Assembly (NCBI GenBank): GCA_025356545.1
Contig: JANXSU010000299.1
Span: forward strand, 1-33,490
DNA length: 33,490 nt
Direction of reading: 5' to 3'
Origin: Comamonadaceae bacterium
Lineage (GTDB): Bacteria; Pseudomonadota; Gammaproteobacteria; Burkholderiales; Burkholderiaceae_C
Shown: positions 28,299-33,490 of the stretch, in pieces
Layout of the letters: every line of letters starts with the position of its first letter
Numbering within the stretch: the first letter of the stretch is position 1
Notes under the pieces: generated by a model
Told to the model about the DNA's origin: nothing
The model's database searches: none
The model's input: only the letters and a program-made list of their open reading frames with translations
Translations under genes and position numbers: made by a program

Positions 28299-31200
28299 AT
28301 GAAACTCATCGACAACATCAACGACCTGCTGGGCGAAGACATCAAGCAGTCCGTCCAGCCAGGTGCGCGGCTCAAAATCGCCGCGTCGTGCTTCTCCATC
28401 TACGCCTACGAGGCCTTGAAGCGCGAGTTGGAATCGGTGGAGTCATTCGAGTTCATCTTCACGTCCCCCACGTTCATGCCCGACGAGGTAACCGATGTCG
28501 CCAAGAAGGAGCGGCGCGAGTTCCATATCCCCAAGTCACCCTCCGAGACCCAAACCGAGCGTAGCTTCTATGGCACCGAGTTCGAGGTGCAGCTCAAAAA
28601 CAAGCTGACCCAGCGCGCCATTGCGCGCGAGTGTGCCGACTGGATGCGCCGCAAAGCCAAATTCCGCTCCAACAGTGGCGTGGCCCCCATGCAGCAGTTT
28701 GCAGCGGTGCAGACCGCTGCACCCGCCGCGCCCAATTCGGTTTACATGCCGCTGCACGGCTTCACTGCCGTCGATTTGGGCTACCAGCGCGGTAACGCTG
28801 TGTCCAACATCGTCAACAAGTTTGACGAGCCAGCCAACACCAGCGTGTTCCTGAGCCTGTTCGATCAAATATGGGCCGATCCCGACAAGCTAACGGACGT
28901 GACCACCTTGGTGTGCGAGCACATTGCGTCGGTGTACCAAGAGAATTCGCCCGAGCGCATCTACTTCCTGATGCTCTACAACATCTTCAACGAGTTTCTG
29001 GAAGACCTCAATGAAGACGTGCTGCCCAACGACCGCACAGGCTACCTCGACACCCTGGTGTGGCAAAAGCTGTTCAACTTCCAGCGCGATGCTGCCACCG
29101 GCATCATCAACAAGCTGGAAACCTACAACGGCTGCATCCTGGCCGACAGCGTGGGCCTGGGCAAAACCTTCACCGCGCTGGCCGTCATCAAGTATTACGA
29201 GCTGCGTAACCGCTCTGTCTTGGTGTTATGCCCCAAGAAGCTGGCCGATAACTGGCTCACCTACAACCGCAACCTTAAAACCAACATCTTCGCCAAAGAC
29301 CGGTTCAACTATGAGGTGCTGTGCCATACCGACTTGCAGCGCACCAGCGGCGAATCCTTTGGCACGCCGCTCAACCGGGTCAACTGGGGCAATTACGACC
29401 TAGTCGTAATTGACGAGTCCCACAACTTCCGCAACAACGATGTCTACAAGGACAAGGAGACGCGCTACCAAAAGCTGATGAACACGGTCATCAAGCAGGG
29501 CGTCAAAACCAAGGTGCTGATGTTGTCTGCCACCCCGGTTAACAACCGGTTTAACGATCTGCGCAACCAACTGGCTTTGGCGTATGAAGGTAATGCCGGG
29601 TTGCTGGGCGACAAACTGCGCACCGAGAAGGACATTGACGAGATATTCCGCCGCGCGCAAACCGCGTTCAATATGTGGACCAAGCTACCGCCGGAAGAGC
29701 GTACCGCCAGTGCCATCCTGGCCGCGCTGGACTTTGATTTTTTCGAGCTGCTGGATAGTGTGACCATTGCCCGGTCGCGCAAGCACATCGAGACGTTCTA
29801 CGACACCAAGGACATTGGCACGTTCCCCGAGCGCCTCAAACCCCTGTCATTCCATTGCCCGCTGACCCAGCGCACCGATGTCATTGGCTTCAACGACATC
29901 TTCAACCAGCTCAGCCTGCTGAAACTGGCCGTGTATGCGCCCGTGGGCTACATCCTGCCCAGCCGCATCAAGAAGTACGAAGACATGTACGACACCGAGG
30001 TGGCCAGCGGCGGAGGCAAGTTCAAACAGGCCGACCGCGAAAAGAGCCTGCAAGCGCTGATGACGGTCAACCTGCTCAAACGGCTGGAAAGTTCGGTCGC
30101 ATCGTTCCGCCTGACATTGCAGAGCCTGCAAAGCAACCACCAGAAGGCGCTGGCCAAGATCACGGCGTTCAAAAAGTCAGGCAAGGCCGCCAAGTTCACC
30201 GACCATACGCCCGACTTTGAGGATGCCGACTTTGACGACGAGCTGTTGCCGGACCTGGATGATGACCAGAGCAGCGAAAGCAATTCAACTGGTGGCAAGG
30301 TGCAAATCGACCTGGGTGACATGGACTTGCCGTCTTGGGAACATGACCTTAATGGTGACCTGGCCGTCATCGATGGGCTTTTGGCTGAAATGGCCAAAAT
30401 CACCCCGGCGGACGATGCCAAGCTCCAACACCTGAAAGCGCAGATCGAGCAGAAGCTAGCGCACCCCTTTAACCCCGGCAACCGCAAGCTGCTCATATTC
30501 ACCGCGTTCGCAGACACCGCCAATTACCTGTACGACAACCTGGCACCGGGCCTGTTCCAGAAGCATGGCATCCATACCGGCAAGGTCACCGGCTCCACCG
30601 AGCCGAAAACCACACTCCGGTTGGCTGCCAACCCGCGCCAAGGTATCGACTTTCAGACCATGCTCACGCTGTTTGCGCCGCGCGCCAAAGAAAAGGCGCT
30701 GACCATGCCCCATGAGCCGGGTGAAATCGACGTGATGATCGGCACCGACTGCATCTCCGAAGGCCAGAACTTGCAGGATTGCGACACCGTCATCAACTAC
30801 GACATCCACTGGAACCCGGTGCGCATCATCCAGCGCTTTGGTCGGGTGGACCGTATTGGCTCTCCCAATGCGCGCATCCAGTTGGTCAACTACTGGCCCG
30901 ATATCAGCTTGGACGAGTACATCCGCCTCAAAGAGCGGGTGGAAAGCCGCATGATGATTGCCGACGTGACCGCCACGGGCGATGACAACGTGCTGTCCGC
31001 CCAGTCCAATGACGTGGCCTACCGCAAGGAGCAATTGCGCCGCCTGCAAGAAGAAGTCATCGAAATGGAAGACCTCAAAACCGGGGTCTCCATTACCGAT
31101 CTGGGCCTGAACGACTTCCGCATGGACTTGCTGAACTACGTCAAAGCCCATGGCGACCTGGCCCGCTTGCCCAATGGTTTGCATGCCGTGGTGCACGCCA

Positions 31201-31637
31201 ACCCCGACAAAGGCTTGCAGCCCGGCGTCATTTTCACGCTGCGCAACCGCCTGTTGAGTGGCACTGGCGGTGCAGTTGTGCAGCAAAAGAACCGGCTGCA
31301 CCCGTACTACTTGGTTTACATCGGCATGGACGGCAGCATCATTGCCGACCATATGGAAGTCAAGGCACTGCTGGACCTGGCCCGCAATGCCTGCAAAGGC
31401 CGCAGCGAACCAGTACCTGCCGCTTTTGAGCCATTCAATACGGCGACCGACGATGGTCGCAACATGCGCACGTTCTCTAACCTGCTAGACCAAGCCATTC
31501 ACTCCATGATTGAGCGCCAGCAGGAGCAGGATGTGGACAGCCTGTTTTCGCCCGGCAAAACCAGCGCCTTGGTGGGAGAGATTGCCGGGCTCGAAGACTT
31601 CGAGTTGATCAGCTTCTTGGTGATTCAGGCCCAATGA
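28299..31637 (+). CDS. SNF2-type superfamily 2 helicase with degenerate PLD-like N-terminus
   Basis: A 1112-residue DNA translocase candidate. Residues about 1-200 resemble the phospholipase-D-like module found at the front of related helicases (LKIAASCFSIYAYEALKREL, FIFTSPTF, then GFTAVDLGY), but no HxK catalytic motif is seen. The motor has Walker A in ADSVGLGKT (about 280-288), DESH (about 370), LSATPVNNR (about 409), and in the second lobe LLIFTAFADTANYLYDNL (about 730), GTDCISEGQNLQDCD and QRFGRVDRIG (arginine fingers, about 850). An acidic linker (about 637-665) separates the lobes. The stop overlaps the DUF4391 start (ATGA). The methyltransferase downstream places it in a defence or restriction operon. 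No nuclease domain is visible. Confidence 0.87.
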   Translation: MKLIDNINDLLGEDIKQSVQPGARLKIAASCFSIYAYEALKRELESVESFEFIFTSPTFMPDEVTDVAKKERREFHIPKSPSETQTERSFYGTEFEVQLKNKLTQRAIARECADWMRRKAKFRSNSGVAPMQQFAAVQTAAPAAPNSVYMPLHGFTAVDLGYQRGNAVSNIVNKFDEPANTSVFLSLFDQIWADPDKLTDVTTLVCEHIASVYQENSPERIYFLMLYNIFNEFLEDLNEDVLPNDRTGYLDTLVWQKLFNFQRDAATGIINKLETYNGCILADSVGLGKTFTALAVIKYYELRNRSVLVLCPKKLADNWLTYNRNLKTNIFAKDRFNYEVLCHTDLQRTSGESFGTPLNRVNWGNYDLVVIDESHNFRNNDVYKDKETRYQKLMNTVIKQGVKTKVLMLSATPVNNRFNDLRNQLALAYEGNAGLLGDKLRTEKDIDEIFRRAQTAFNMWTKLPPEERTASAILAALDFDFFELLDSVTIARSRKHIETFYDTKDIGTFPERLKPLSFHCPLTQRTDVIGFNDIFNQLSLLKLAVYAPVGYILPSRIKKYEDMYDTEVASGGGKFKQADREKSLQALMTVNLLKRLESSVASFRLTLQSLQSNHQKALAKITAFKKSGKAAKFTDHTPDFEDADFDDELLPDLDDDQSSESNSTGGKVQIDLGDMDLPSWEHDLNGDLAVIDGLLAEMAKITPADDAKLQHLKAQIEQKLAHPFNPGNRKLLIFTAFADTANYLYDNLAPGLFQKHGIHTGKVTGSTEPKTTLRLAANPRQGIDFQTMLTLFAPRAKEKALTMPHEPGEIDVMIGTDCISEGQNLQDCDTVINYDIHWNPVRIIQRFGRVDRIGSPNARIQLVNYWPDISLDEYIRLKERVESRMMIADVTATGDDNVLSAQSNDVAYRKEQLRRLQEEVIEMEDLKTGVSITDLGLNDFRMDLLNYVKAHGDLARLPNGLHAVVHANPDKGLQPGVIFTLRNRLLSGTGGAVVQQKNRLHPYYLVYIGMDGSIIADHMEVKALLDLARNACKGRSEPVPAAFEPFNTATDDGRNMRTFSNLLDQAIHSMIERQQEQDVDSLFSPGKTSALVGEIAGLEDFELISFLVIQAQ

Positions 31638-32320
31638 CTAGCCAAGCACTTTTCACCTGGCCGTCGCAGGCGGCAGTAGGTAGCCCGGTCGCCAAGTCGA
31701 AAATCTACGCCCATGCCAAGCCCACTTCCGTCTTGCGAGCGCTGTTTGTGCAGCAGGTGGAAAGCATCACCTGGGCCTACAAGCTCTCGCCAGAGACCAT
31801 CAATCTGCCCGCCAAACCGGCGGTGCCGGAGATTGAAGTGTTTGAAGTCGCTTTGAAGCTGCCTGATGTCAGCCATTCGGTACTGCGCTGCATCGACAAG
31901 GCCATGCCGCGCCCCATCCTGTTCAACCTGCGGTTTGACGGGAAAACCCAGCCGATTGCCGCCTATAAGCGGCCCAGCGATGCCGCCCACCACCAAGGGG
32001 GTCAACCAGCCAGCCAGTGGGTGCTGGGGGACTACCATGCTGCGCCTTGGCAGCCGGACGGTGAAGCCCGGCCTGCATTGCCCTTGGCGCTGGATTTGCA
32101 GGGCCTGTACGAGCAGATATTGCGACAGCATTTGACCATTCCAGCCCGCGCAGGCGAGTCTTTGCGTGACCAGTTGGACCGCCTGGCCGCACTGGCAGCC
32201 AAACAAGCGGCAGTGGCCAAGCTGGAAGCCCGCCTTAGTGCTGAAAAACAGTTCAACCGCAAGGTCGAGATCAACGCCCAGTTGCGTACCATTCGCACTG
32301 AGCTGGAAGCGCTGACATGA
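31634..32320 (+). CDS. DUF4391 domain-containing protein
   Basis: A 228-residue protein whose ITWAYKLSPETINLPAKP and IEVFEVALK segments match the DUF4391 family, which is found beside helicase and type III Mod/Res genes but has no known function. The C-terminal 60 residues (about 165-226) are a likely coiled coil rich in Ala, Leu, Lys and Glu, suited to protein contacts. The first 20 residues (FTWPSQAAVGSPVAKSKIYA) suit a DNA- or partner-binding segment. Coupled to the helicase by a 4-base overlap, so the two probably form a complex. Family assignment is by recall of the motif pattern. Confidence 0.75.
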   Translation: MTSQALFTWPSQAAVGSPVAKSKIYAHAKPTSVLRALFVQQVESITWAYKLSPETINLPAKPAVPEIEVFEVALKLPDVSHSVLRCIDKAMPRPILFNLRFDGKTQPIAAYKRPSDAAHHQGGQPASQWVLGDYHAAPWQPDGEARPALPLALDLQGLYEQILRQHLTIPARAGESLRDQLDRLAALAAKQAAVAKLEARLSAEKQFNRKVEINAQLRTIRTELEALT

Positions 32321-32346
32321 CCGGTGGCCAAAGCACCCAATTTGCT

Positions 32347-32397
32347 ATTTATTTAGTAGCTTCTCCCGCATATTGCATGGGGGCTAGAAGCCAAAAA
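32347..32397 (+). repeat. dispersed short repeat copy C, intergenic
   Basis: Reads TTTAGTAGCTTCTCCCGC, a variable centre, GGGGGCTAGAAGCCAAAAA. Same family as the copies inside earP and selO. It lies between the DUF4391 gene and the mod remnant at 32402, at the apparent recombination junction. Confidence 0.6.
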
Positions 32398-32401
32398 GAC
32401 C

Positions 32402-32464
32402 ATGAATAAACTGAAAATGCACAGCCCTGACTTGACCCTGGCCACCCGCACTCCAAAGAACTGA
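32402..32464 (+). pseudogene. remnant of the 5' end of the mod methyltransferase gene
   Basis: Bases 32401-32444 repeat bases 33329-33372, the start of the mod gene, with 41 of 44 positions identical. The copy begins with the same ATG and encodes MNKLKMHSPDLT, then diverges and meets a stop after 20 codons. It shows that mod once began here, directly after DUF4391, or that this segment was duplicated when dinD entered. The ATG could still be translated as a 20-residue peptide, but function is unlikely. Confidence 0.8.
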
Positions 32465-32467
32465 CCC

Positions 32468-33337
32468 ATGAGCATCCAAACCCTGGCACACCTTAAAACC
32501 CGCTTTGACGCAATGAGTCACCGAATGGATGACGAGAACATCGAGTTCTGGTTTGCCCGCGAGCTGATGGAACCCTTGGATTACAGCCGCTGGGAGAATT
32601 TTCAAACCGCCATCCAGAGGGCCATAGAGTCTTGCAAATCAACGGGTTACAACGAATCTGATCATTTTCGTGGCGTCACGAAAATGATCGAAATTGGCAA
32701 GGGTGGGCAACGCGAAGTGGACGACTTCATGCTTACCCGCTACGCCTGCTACCTCATCGCCCAAAACGGCGATCCACGCAAAGAGGCCATCGCCTTTGCC
32801 CAGAGCTACTTCGCCATCCAGACCCGCAAGCAAGAGCTGATTGAAGACCGCATGCGCTTGCAAACCCGGCTTGATGCACGCGAGAGGCTGCGCGAGTCTG
32901 AAAAAACCTTGTCCCAAAACATCTTTGAGCGTGGCGTTGACGACGCAGGCTTTGGCCGCATCCGCTCCCAAGGCGATGCCGCCCTGTTTGGCGGCCACAA
33001 CACCCAAGCCATGAAAGCCAAATACGGCATCACGCACACCCGCCCACTGGCAGATTTTTTGCCCACGTTGACCATTGCAGCTAAGAATTTGGCCACGGAA
33101 ATGACCAACCATAACGTGCAGCAAGACGATTTGCAGGGCGAACCATCCATTACCCGCGAGCACGTCCACAACAACGACAGCGTCAGAACTATGCTTGGAC
33201 AACGCGGCATTCAACCCGAACGCCTGCCTGCCGAAGAAGACATTAAAAAGCTGGAGCGCCGCGTCAAAAGCGACGACAAGAAGCTGGAAAAGCAGTCGGG
33301 CAAGCTACCCAAACCAGGCGATGAACAACATGAATAA
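32468..33337 (+). CDS. dinD: DNA damage-inducible protein D homologue
   Basis: A 289-residue DinD-family protein (E. coli DinD 274 residues), reported to restrain RecA filaments and strand exchange. Supporting segments are NIEFWFARELMEPLDYSRWE, GGQREVDDFMLTRYACYLIA and FAQSYFAIQTRKQE, the BRO/KilA-like start of the family. AALFGGHNTQAMKAKYGI and LADFLPTLTIAAKNLATE belong to the family C-terminal part. The charged tail (about 255-289) is Lys/Glu rich. It lies between DUF4391 and mod, and its end overlaps the mod start. No SOS (LexA) box is visible upstream, unlike in E. coli. A perfect 13-bp palindrome lies in the coding sequence (32660-32689). Its position next to a mod remnant suggests that it was inserted. 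Confidence 0.85.
   Translation: MSIQTLAHLKTRFDAMSHRMDDENIEFWFARELMEPLDYSRWENFQTAIQRAIESCKSTGYNESDHFRGVTKMIEIGKGGQREVDDFMLTRYACYLIAQNGDPRKEAIAFAQSYFAIQTRKQELIEDRMRLQTRLDARERLRESEKTLSQNIFERGVDDAGFGRIRSQGDAALFGGHNTQAMKAKYGITHTRPLADFLPTLTIAAKNLATEMTNHNVQQDDLQGEPSITREHVHNNDSVRTMLGQRGIQPERLPAEEDIKKLERRVKSDDKKLEKQSGKLPKPGDEQHE
32660..32689. repeat. perfect 13-bp inverted repeat inside dinD
   Basis: GATCATTTTCGTG (32660-32672) and CACGAAAATGATC (32677-32689) pair perfectly around GCGT. The stem begins and ends with GATC. It encodes DHFRGVTKMI in frame, a conserved part of the protein, so it is not an insertion of foreign codons. It could form a hairpin in the mRNA or in single-stranded DNA. Confidence 0.7.
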
Positions 33338-33490
33338 ACTGAAAATGCACAGCCCGGACCTGACCCAGGCCAATATCGACAAGCTGGTAGAGCTGTTCCC
33401 CAATTGCATGGTGGAGTCGCGTGATGCCAAAGGGGTGGTCACCCGCAGCATTGACTTTGACCAGTTGCGTCAGGAGCTGACTGGCAGCAT
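33330..33490 (+). CDS. site-specific DNA-methyltransferase (type III Mod-like), 3' end outside window
   Basis: Only the first 53 codons are present, beginning MNKLKMHSPDLTQANIDKL and continuing ELFPNCMVESRD and SIDFDQLRQELTG. This N-terminus matches the adenine-specific DNA methyltransferases of type III restriction systems (Mod), which normally begin KLKMHSP(N/D)LT and DFDQLRQEL; the catalytic DPPY and SAM motifs lie outside the window. ATG 33330 is chosen because the upstream duplicate begins at the same codon; ATG 33321 is in frame. It overlaps the dinD end by eight bases. A Res gene may follow outside the window. Confidence 0.78.
   Translation, partial: MNKLKMHSPDLTQANIDKLVELFPNCMVESRDAKGVVTRSIDFDQLRQELTGS

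Follow-up and report, generated by a model that had tools for sequence, protein, structure and literature searches.

Gene content of the window

We analysed 33,490 nucleotides of a Comamonadaceae bacterium (assembly GCA_025356545.1, contig JANXSU010000299.1), here called the window, whose right-hand end carries four genes on the same strand: a SNF2-type helicase (HEL), a DUF4391 protein, dinD and the start of a type III mod methyltransferase gene. The window spans all of this contig (C269), one of 299 in the assembly, and the 3' cut of mod is the assembly end. All four reading frames were confirmed at, or a few bases from, the positions first given, and both frames and families agree with the first-pass annotation, which had described a coupled helicase of 1112 aa and a DUF4391 protein followed by dinD and the mod start. 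The start of the DUF4391 gene overlaps the stop of the helicase gene (ATGA). The features are:

28299..31637, + strand: SNF2-type helicase (HEL), 1112 aa; about 1-210 a degenerate phospholipase D (PLD)-like domain, about 255-880 the superfamily 2 (SF2) motor, then a C-terminal region
31634..32320, + strand: DUF4391 protein, 228 aa; PF14335 at 1.1e-50; alpha/beta domain and two long C-terminal helices (177-227)
32402..32444, + strand: remnant or duplicate of the 5' end of mod, identical to 33330-33372 in 40 of 43 bases, upstream of dinD
32468..33337, + strand: dinD (Bro-N domain), 289 aa; apparent embedded cargo, PADLOC candidate PDC-S13
32660..32689, no strand: palindrome inside dinD, 30 bp with 13-bp arms and a 4-nt loop, conserved at the nucleotide level among dinD genes
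33330..33490, + strand: 5' part of mod, the type III methyltransferase gene, truncated where the contig ends; its start overlaps the dinD stop

A probable extended type III operon

The piece of mod in the window is 53 codons long (33330-33488). It matches the PADLOC model MTase_III at 7.7e-11 and shares 96% identity with the first part of a complete Mod (616 aa) encoded on another contig of the same genome, C21, which bears out the proposal that the downstream gene is a type III-like Mod. The C21 Mod matches PF01555 (1.2e-30), with DPPY at 127 and FAG at 407. We take DPPY to be motif IV and FxG to be motif I, and assign the enzyme to the beta class; the near copy on C21 thus has the DPPY-before-FxG order of a type III Mod, a beta-class adenine methyltransferase.

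A search of the source genome with the Res of a plasmid relative found a Res on contig C135, with an open frame of 973 codons and 59% identity, and on C21 a Res of which the start is present. The C135 Res contains the domains ResIII (1.8e-10) and RE_endonuc (5e-34) and the motifs GTGKT, DEPQ, NPDW and ETKG, that is, the SF2 motor and the C-terminal PD-(D/E)XK endonuclease of a type III Res. A profile of seven Res proteins, including this one, matches the EcoP15I Res (4zcf) at 4.6e-112.

Contig C21 is 4284 bp long. It begins with the end of a gene, presumably for a helix-turn-helix antitoxin, and a dinD fragment; the full mod comes next, then a gene for an AlbA_2/RecG-like protein of 591 aa, and last the first part of res. 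Its left part is 93% identical to the end of C269 over 162 bp, and its right end is 91.5% identical to the end of C135 over 247 bp. The simplest reading of these overlaps is that C269 and C135 would be two sides of one operon and C21 a variant copy of its middle. C21 was also considered as the direct continuation of the window; 93% identity over 162 bp marks it as a second copy or a strain variant. The assembly holds, on C21 and C135 (loci L007 and L101), a second, variant copy of the mod-AlbA_2-res part, either from a strain mixture or from a second locus.

To see what surrounds the pair elsewhere, we anchored the search on DUF4391, which left the other genes free to be present or absent. Set 1 consists of the best 80 of 324 confirmed loci. 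Profiles made from annotated plasmid operons served to classify the partners, which were counted only on the same strand and in order; a locus was testable if at least 600 (HEL), 1000 (Mod) or 4500 (Res) bases were present. Of the loci testable for each partner, all 79 have HEL upstream, all 75 have Mod downstream and 65 of 67 have Res. Going by record titles, the phyla include Proteobacteria, Verrucomicrobia, Planctomycetes, Chlorobi, Acidobacteria and Nitrospirae, among others. The closest DUF4391 relatives come mostly from Comamonadaceae and other Burkholderiales (73-87% identity over the best segment). Set 2 was anchored on Pfam PF14335 and holds 35 loci; of those testable for each partner, all 29 have HEL, 30 of 32 have Mod and 26 of 28 have Res. 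It includes L038 and the fragment L096, where DUF4391 was unrecognised by the profile, and excludes three PF14335 matches under the cut-off (L049-L051); the two sets overlap in part, for example in L043 and L113, whose contigs share a length of 87724. In the reverse direction, HEL was found in 14 of 200 genomes, and 13 of these 14 are genomes with DUF4391 matches. If pairs occurred mostly without mod, the earlier idea of a defence system would fall; this is not what the loci show, and the pair is conserved beside a type III-like Mod in many lineages.

Annotated plasmids of Raoultella, Methylotuvimicrobium, Aeromonas, E. coli, Acinetobacter, Mycolicibacterium, Phaeobacter and Sphingobium show the same order, with insertion sequences breaking up the Acinetobacter and Sphingobium operons. 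Two E. coli records name the last gene a type III restriction-modification system endonuclease (NCBI). DNA similar to the helicase-DUF4391 pair is present in 87 of 5426 complete E. coli genomes, covering at least 80% of the query in 54 of the 87. Listeria and Leuconostoc plasmids also keep the order, with a shorter protein in the DUF4391 place. In three loci (L136, L175, L386) Res is preceded by two Mod-like genes in tandem, which may represent a form of the operon with two methyltransferases.

The first-pass annotation had seen no obvious nuclease in the visible part and suggested a modification-based system in which the helicase and DUF4391 take the place of Res or add to it. The window itself is without Res, and two set 1 loci, with 10 kb (L119) and 4.8 kb (L171) of downstream DNA, have no Res match. 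Against this stand the Res that follows Mod in almost all testable relatives and the Res of the source genome, complete with its RE_endonuc domain. Replacement of Res is close to untenable.

Type III systems, a known kind of bacterial defence against phages, are generally understood as Mod plus Res. Their cleavage depends on ATP and falls about 25-27 bp away from one member of a pair of unmodified sites in inverse orientation. Like EcoP15I and EcoP1I, the source genome has a Mod of the N6_N4_Mtase family with DPPY before FAG and a Res with ResIII and RE_endonuc that belongs to a profile matching EcoP15I Res, and in relatives Mod and Res are adjacent or have cargo between them. Unlike in EcoP15I and EcoP1I, a 1112-aa SNF2-type helicase and a DUF4391 protein precede mod, and cargo sits in two slots. 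We read the locus, with a probability of roughly 0.7, as the 5' half of an extended type III restriction-modification (R-M) operon of the order HEL-DUF4391-(cargo)-Mod-(cargo)-Res, with HEL-DUF4391 as an accessory module. The genes and their association reported earlier are real, and the boundary of the system was drawn wrongly.

Several observations weigh against this reading, besides the two loci without a Res match. The set 2 exceptions are L039, where the pair is present with neither Mod nor Res in the 4.7 kb to the contig end, and L081, where DUF4391 lies at the contig start and neither is found within 9 kb downstream. In the source genome Res, the full Mod and HEL sit on three separate contigs; continuity from C269 to C135 is deduced from the C21 overlaps, in an assembly with 5.27% contamination. 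Type III genes also occur without the pair: L384 has Mod-Res of a close subfamily (1564 bits) and no HEL or DUF4391 in the roughly 11 kb upstream that were searched, L390 has Res and Mod with neither in 4 kb upstream, and L383 has both without the pair, its Mod matching at just 40 bits.

In view of these three fetched loci with Mod-Res but no pair, HEL-DUF4391 looks like an add-on carried by a subset of type III R-M systems, needing Mod-Res and not vice versa, and the pair is not required for a type III operon as such. The Res profile matched 27 of 200 genomes, compared with the 14 that have HEL, and 13 of the 27 carry HEL. Eight further Res stretches were fetched: three have enough upstream DNA, four are cut by contig ends, and one (L388) comes from a genome (G300) whose HEL sits on another contig. 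Since 13 of 27 Res genomes carry HEL, itself found almost only beside DUF4391-Mod-Res, a substantial branch of type III systems seems to possess two further parts.

Over 48 complete loci, HEL, DUF4391 and Res diverge together and Mod less so: the Mantel correlations (rho), calculated without a species-tree control, are 0.80 for HEL-DUF4391, 0.66 for HEL-Res and 0.60 for DUF4391-Res, and 0.31-0.37 for pairs with Mod. This fits a stable HEL-DUF4391-Res unit in which Mod would be exchanged or fast-changing.

In the literature searched, with subscription journals and bioRxiv mostly outside it, no description of the HEL-DUF4391 operon turned up, which agrees with the earlier view of a little-described system. 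As far as this literature goes, the locus is a variant of type III R-M with a two-gene accessory module that is without description. The term DUF4391 was met there only in a TM7x host-range table.

To the left of the helicase lies a divergent selO/ydiU gene and, farther left, a septation protein A gene.

The helicase-DUF4391 module

HEL matches the Pfam families SNF2-rel_dom (6.6e-12) and Helicase_C (1.2e-14). Its SF2 motifs are complete in the window (ADSVGLGKT, DESH, SATPVNN and QRFGRVDR) and are kept in the consensus of both clades. The PADLOC model C3a139, 'HKD+Snf2', matches from residue 188 on at 2.8e-125.

Ahead of the motor, HEL carries an additional N-terminal PLD-like domain. The first five Foldseek matches to a model of the N-terminal 262 residues are SauUSI (two), phosphatidylserine synthase (two) and the NgoAVII R protein, with SauUSI best (probability 0.99, E 0.016). 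The list from VIA is led by TrmBL2, FAM83B, SauUSI and Zucchini (Z about 9, 121-132 residues); for SauUSI, Z is 9.0 and the root-mean-square deviation 3.7 over 132 aligned residues. We take the first five Foldseek proteins and the first VIA rows to be members of the PLD superfamily. Two points count against the assignment: the model is of low confidence (pLDDT, the predicted local distance difference test, 53.4), and no Foldseek match to it reaches E 0.001. A sequence search of solved structures with the helicase N-terminus gave no meaningful match.

The helicase of genome G369 is matched by the HEL profile from position 8 on and has the canonical HKD motif LLHGKLIHID...GSSNFT. In the alignment, the window has APMQQF at LLHGKL and PLHGFT at GSSNFT, so that the catalytic motif HxK(x)4D(x)nGSxN is absent from the window HEL when aligned with this relative. 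HxK is also absent at the aligned position in L032, L037 and L339, and M131, Q132 and F134 are invariant across 60 aligned relatives. Because the HKD motif is missing in this alignment and these three residues are invariant, we conclude that the PLD-like domain is a pseudo-nuclease. Another candidate, H153 as the catalytic histidine with the lysine replaced by phenylalanine, was rejected: the G369 alignment puts this stretch at GSSN, and the whole HxK is absent.

The structure prediction for the DUF4391 protein is confident (pLDDT 91.5) and consists of an alpha/beta domain followed by two long helices. A sequence search of solved structures gave no meaningful match, and with the model no match fell under E 0.001 (Foldseek and VIA in the PDB, Foldseek in a viral library); most VIA rows are confined to the C-terminal helices (172-228) and barely cover the alpha/beta domain. 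The shorter protein in the Listeria and Leuconostoc plasmids (L032, L339) has 185 aa; NCBI calls it DUF4391 in Leuconostoc and a hypothetical protein in Listeria, and it is likely a diverged form of the DUF4391 subunit. A lone partial DUF4391 (L038, genome G260, contig C25, 3641-4051) covers profile positions 101-232, with no partner genes on its 10.6-kb contig.

The module resembles parts of several known systems. PLD-helicase restriction enzymes (SauUSI, the NgoAVII/CglI family) likewise join an N-terminal PLD-like domain to an SF2 motor; HEL differs from them in lacking the HKD motif, and the nuclease is here the separate Res. The model of a PLD-like anti-phage protein, NF042964, gives HEL 109.7 bits, compared with a cut-off of 1100. 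DISARM also places a SNF2-like helicase next to a DNA methyltransferase, and HEL has a weak similarity to DrmD. However, HEL reaches 135 bits with NF038317, where the DrmD cut-off is 610, and 97.9 with NF038318, which has a cut-off of 950, and among the annotated neighbours in relatives no gene is named DrmA or DrmB. In BREX-related type 2 systems (PMC12839542), a Swi2/Snf2 helicase with an HKD domain on its N-terminal side works with an N6 adenine methyltransferase; here the HKD motif is absent, Mod is of type III and Res is present. The term DUF4391 is absent from that paper.

We infer that the operon of the window runs on into mod and res, and that its products would form a physical complex that translocates on DNA. 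As expected from the family, Mod would methylate an asymmetric site and so mark self, and Res with Mod would cut unmodified DNA after ATP-driven communication, as in EcoP15I. HEL would act as a DNA motor, its PLD-like domain having lost the nuclease function, and the small DUF4391 protein with its two long helices at the C-terminus would serve as an adaptor. Together they might work on DNA for Mod-Res, by clearing bound proteins or by moving the complex to productive encounters. Such a service role is the likeliest of those we weighed, and we put it forward tentatively, at less than even odds; a regulatory or self-protecting role comes next.

In that second role HEL-DUF4391 would limit Res on host DNA, for instance after damage or on newly arrived operons. 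A PLD-like domain without the HKD motif leaves the module with no visible effector, Mod-Res operons exist without the pair, and DinD, which we take to be a damage-response protein, recurs as cargo; all three would suit a regulator. However, a motor of 1112 aa is costly for such a task, HEL diverges together with Res, and DinD is rare and swappable. On balance we consider regulation unlikely.

HEL-DUF4391 could also be an independent defence system that travels with type III genes. The HKD-bearing G369 helicase is a relative in another setting: this genome is the fourteenth with HEL, its helicase is more distant, and no DUF4391, Mod or Res match was found in the 20 kb fetched. There (L354, 6930-10202) it is followed by frames of 367 and 1077 codons that match none of the six profiles, possibly another defence system. 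Independence would also agree with the pair without a Mod match at L039 and with the existence of a PADLOC model for the helicase. What makes it improbable is that Mod lies beside the pair in every testable set 1 locus and Res in nearly all, that the two genes overlap at start and stop and lie a short distance from Mod in most loci (under 150 bases from DUF4391 in 51 of 75 set 1 loci, measured by open-frame ends), and that the pair has no recognisable nuclease of its own.

Cargo genes and the palindrome in dinD

Between DUF4391 and Mod, an extra frame of at least 110 codons occurs in 22 of 75 loci, and between Mod and Res in 31 of 65; frames on either strand were counted and some are spurious. 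The Pfam search covered 28 of the 29 frames in the first slot and, in the second, 26 of 38 together with one from C21; reverse-strand and some short frames were omitted. Among the 28 proteins of the first slot we found UvrD helicases (6), DUF2130 (4), OLD-like TOPRIM (3), HerA (2), PemK (2), Bro-N (2), PIN (1), AlbA_2 (1) and others. The 27 proteins of the second slot include Fic (9), AlbA_2 (7), Bro-N (4), YhcG (3) and RhuM (1).

The DinD of the window scores 381 bits with the NCBIfam equivalog NF008573 (cut-off 242, residues 4-280) and matches PADLOC PDC-S13 at 1.4e-118. In E. coli, DinD expression is controlled by LexA and the protein acts on RecA filaments. PDC-S13 is embedded in R-M operons, as is the DinD of the window; the host operon here differs in being type III with HEL-DUF4391. 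In a preprint by Payne on embedded genes, the PDC names reportedly derive from embedding.

After DUF4391, the window has an 81-base spacer, the first 43 bases of mod, dinD, and then the mod start again at 33330. In a relative (L102), a closely similar spacer leads straight into mod and dinD is absent. The duplication of the mod start (32402-32444 and 33330-33372) is a footprint of cargo acquisition, and the arrangement fits a dinD-mod segment that would have been acquired by recombination at the start of mod. DinD would be optional cargo, gained together with the partial duplication.

The first-pass annotation had raised the idea that HEL, DUF4391, DinD and Mod act together, with DinD as an unusual partner. 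That dinD recurs in both slots and that its stop overlaps the mod start in the window would speak for a working partner. Matches to dinD, however, occur in just 8 of 80 set 1 loci, four per slot and three of them short (L131, L145, L175); the other 72, some of them cut by contig ends, have none, and L102 lacks it at the same junction. Fic, AlbA_2, UvrD, YhcG and PemK occupy the same slots. A four-part system is very improbable, and the gene orders indicate that DinD is a swappable, optional embedded cargo.

The palindrome at 32660-32689 falls within the part of dinD that codes for Bro-N. In dinD genes of many lineages, with amino-acid identities as low as about 30%, the stretch HF(R/A/V/P)x(V/I)(T/G/N)KM retains its base pairing by codon changes that come in pairs (CGT..ACG, GCC..GGC, GTT..AAC and CCC..GGG, coding for R..T, A..G, V..N and P..G). 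A few rows have mismatches, e.g. L311, L320 and L321. Among 24 distinct sequences, four of which were fetched via the palindrome itself (L188, L207, L208, L233), 95.8% of the cells pair and two-sided changes occur in 6 of 13 pairs. The covariation score is 0.319, compared with 0.106 (sd 0.017) for shuffles, none of 500 of which is as high; the maximum when the site is slid is 0.118.

The codons at the site are also strongly biased: CAT is used in 36/36 cases, TTT in 34/35, AAA in 35/35, CGT in 22/22 and ACG in 22/24, compared with 45%, 48%, 52%, 20% and 19% elsewhere in the same genes. This count covers 36 of 40 aligned rows, leaving out two duplicates (L304, L325) and two poorly aligned rows (L090, L324), and five of the 36 were fetched by the palindrome (L183, L188, L207, L208, L233). 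In 21 rows from the protein search alone (L325, which is the other half of L316, uncounted), CAT is found in 21/21, TTT in 19/21 and AAA in 20/21. A pure by-product of codon need was rejected, as these codons are enriched at the site relative to the same genes and the pairs co-vary. The alignments thus point to constraint on the palindrome at the nucleotide level, with codon changes that compensate for each other.

The exact pattern occurs at seven places in 150 genomes, and the reversed control at none. Four of the seven fall in dinD genes and two in fragments of dinD (C21, G425); the seventh (L334) lacks a dinD-like frame. Phage contigs hold at least 120 stretches with the palindrome (L184-L303); among the matches listed, 14 are inside a DinD-like frame, and of the other 106, 89 are outside every listed long frame (at least 150 codons). 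Ten neighbouring phage frames gave terminase (two), portal, repressor, integrase, serine recombinase (two) and three without a family. An end of an IS21-type transposon was considered and dropped, with no transposase among these ten scanned frames. Both half-sites together were not found in the literature searched.

The palindrome might be a DNA or RNA-hairpin site recognised by DinD-type Bro-N proteins or by a recombinase, which we regard as rather doubtful. If true, the DinD cargo would bring its own target site, and the phage copies could be the sensed object or an exchange point for dinD and other DNA. In either case the palindrome provides a sequence handle on dinD, a widespread and poorly understood cargo gene. 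In several stretches dinD is cut or fused shortly past the palindrome (L131:12949, L145:12842, L175:5191, L274, L286, L007:140-169), as if it were a preferred breakpoint. Three phage stretches carry two CATTTT...AAAATG palindromes with different inner arms, 30-39 bases apart (L218:12226-12279, L231:3822-3884, L273:7852-7907), and L222, which is related to L273, carries just one of the two.

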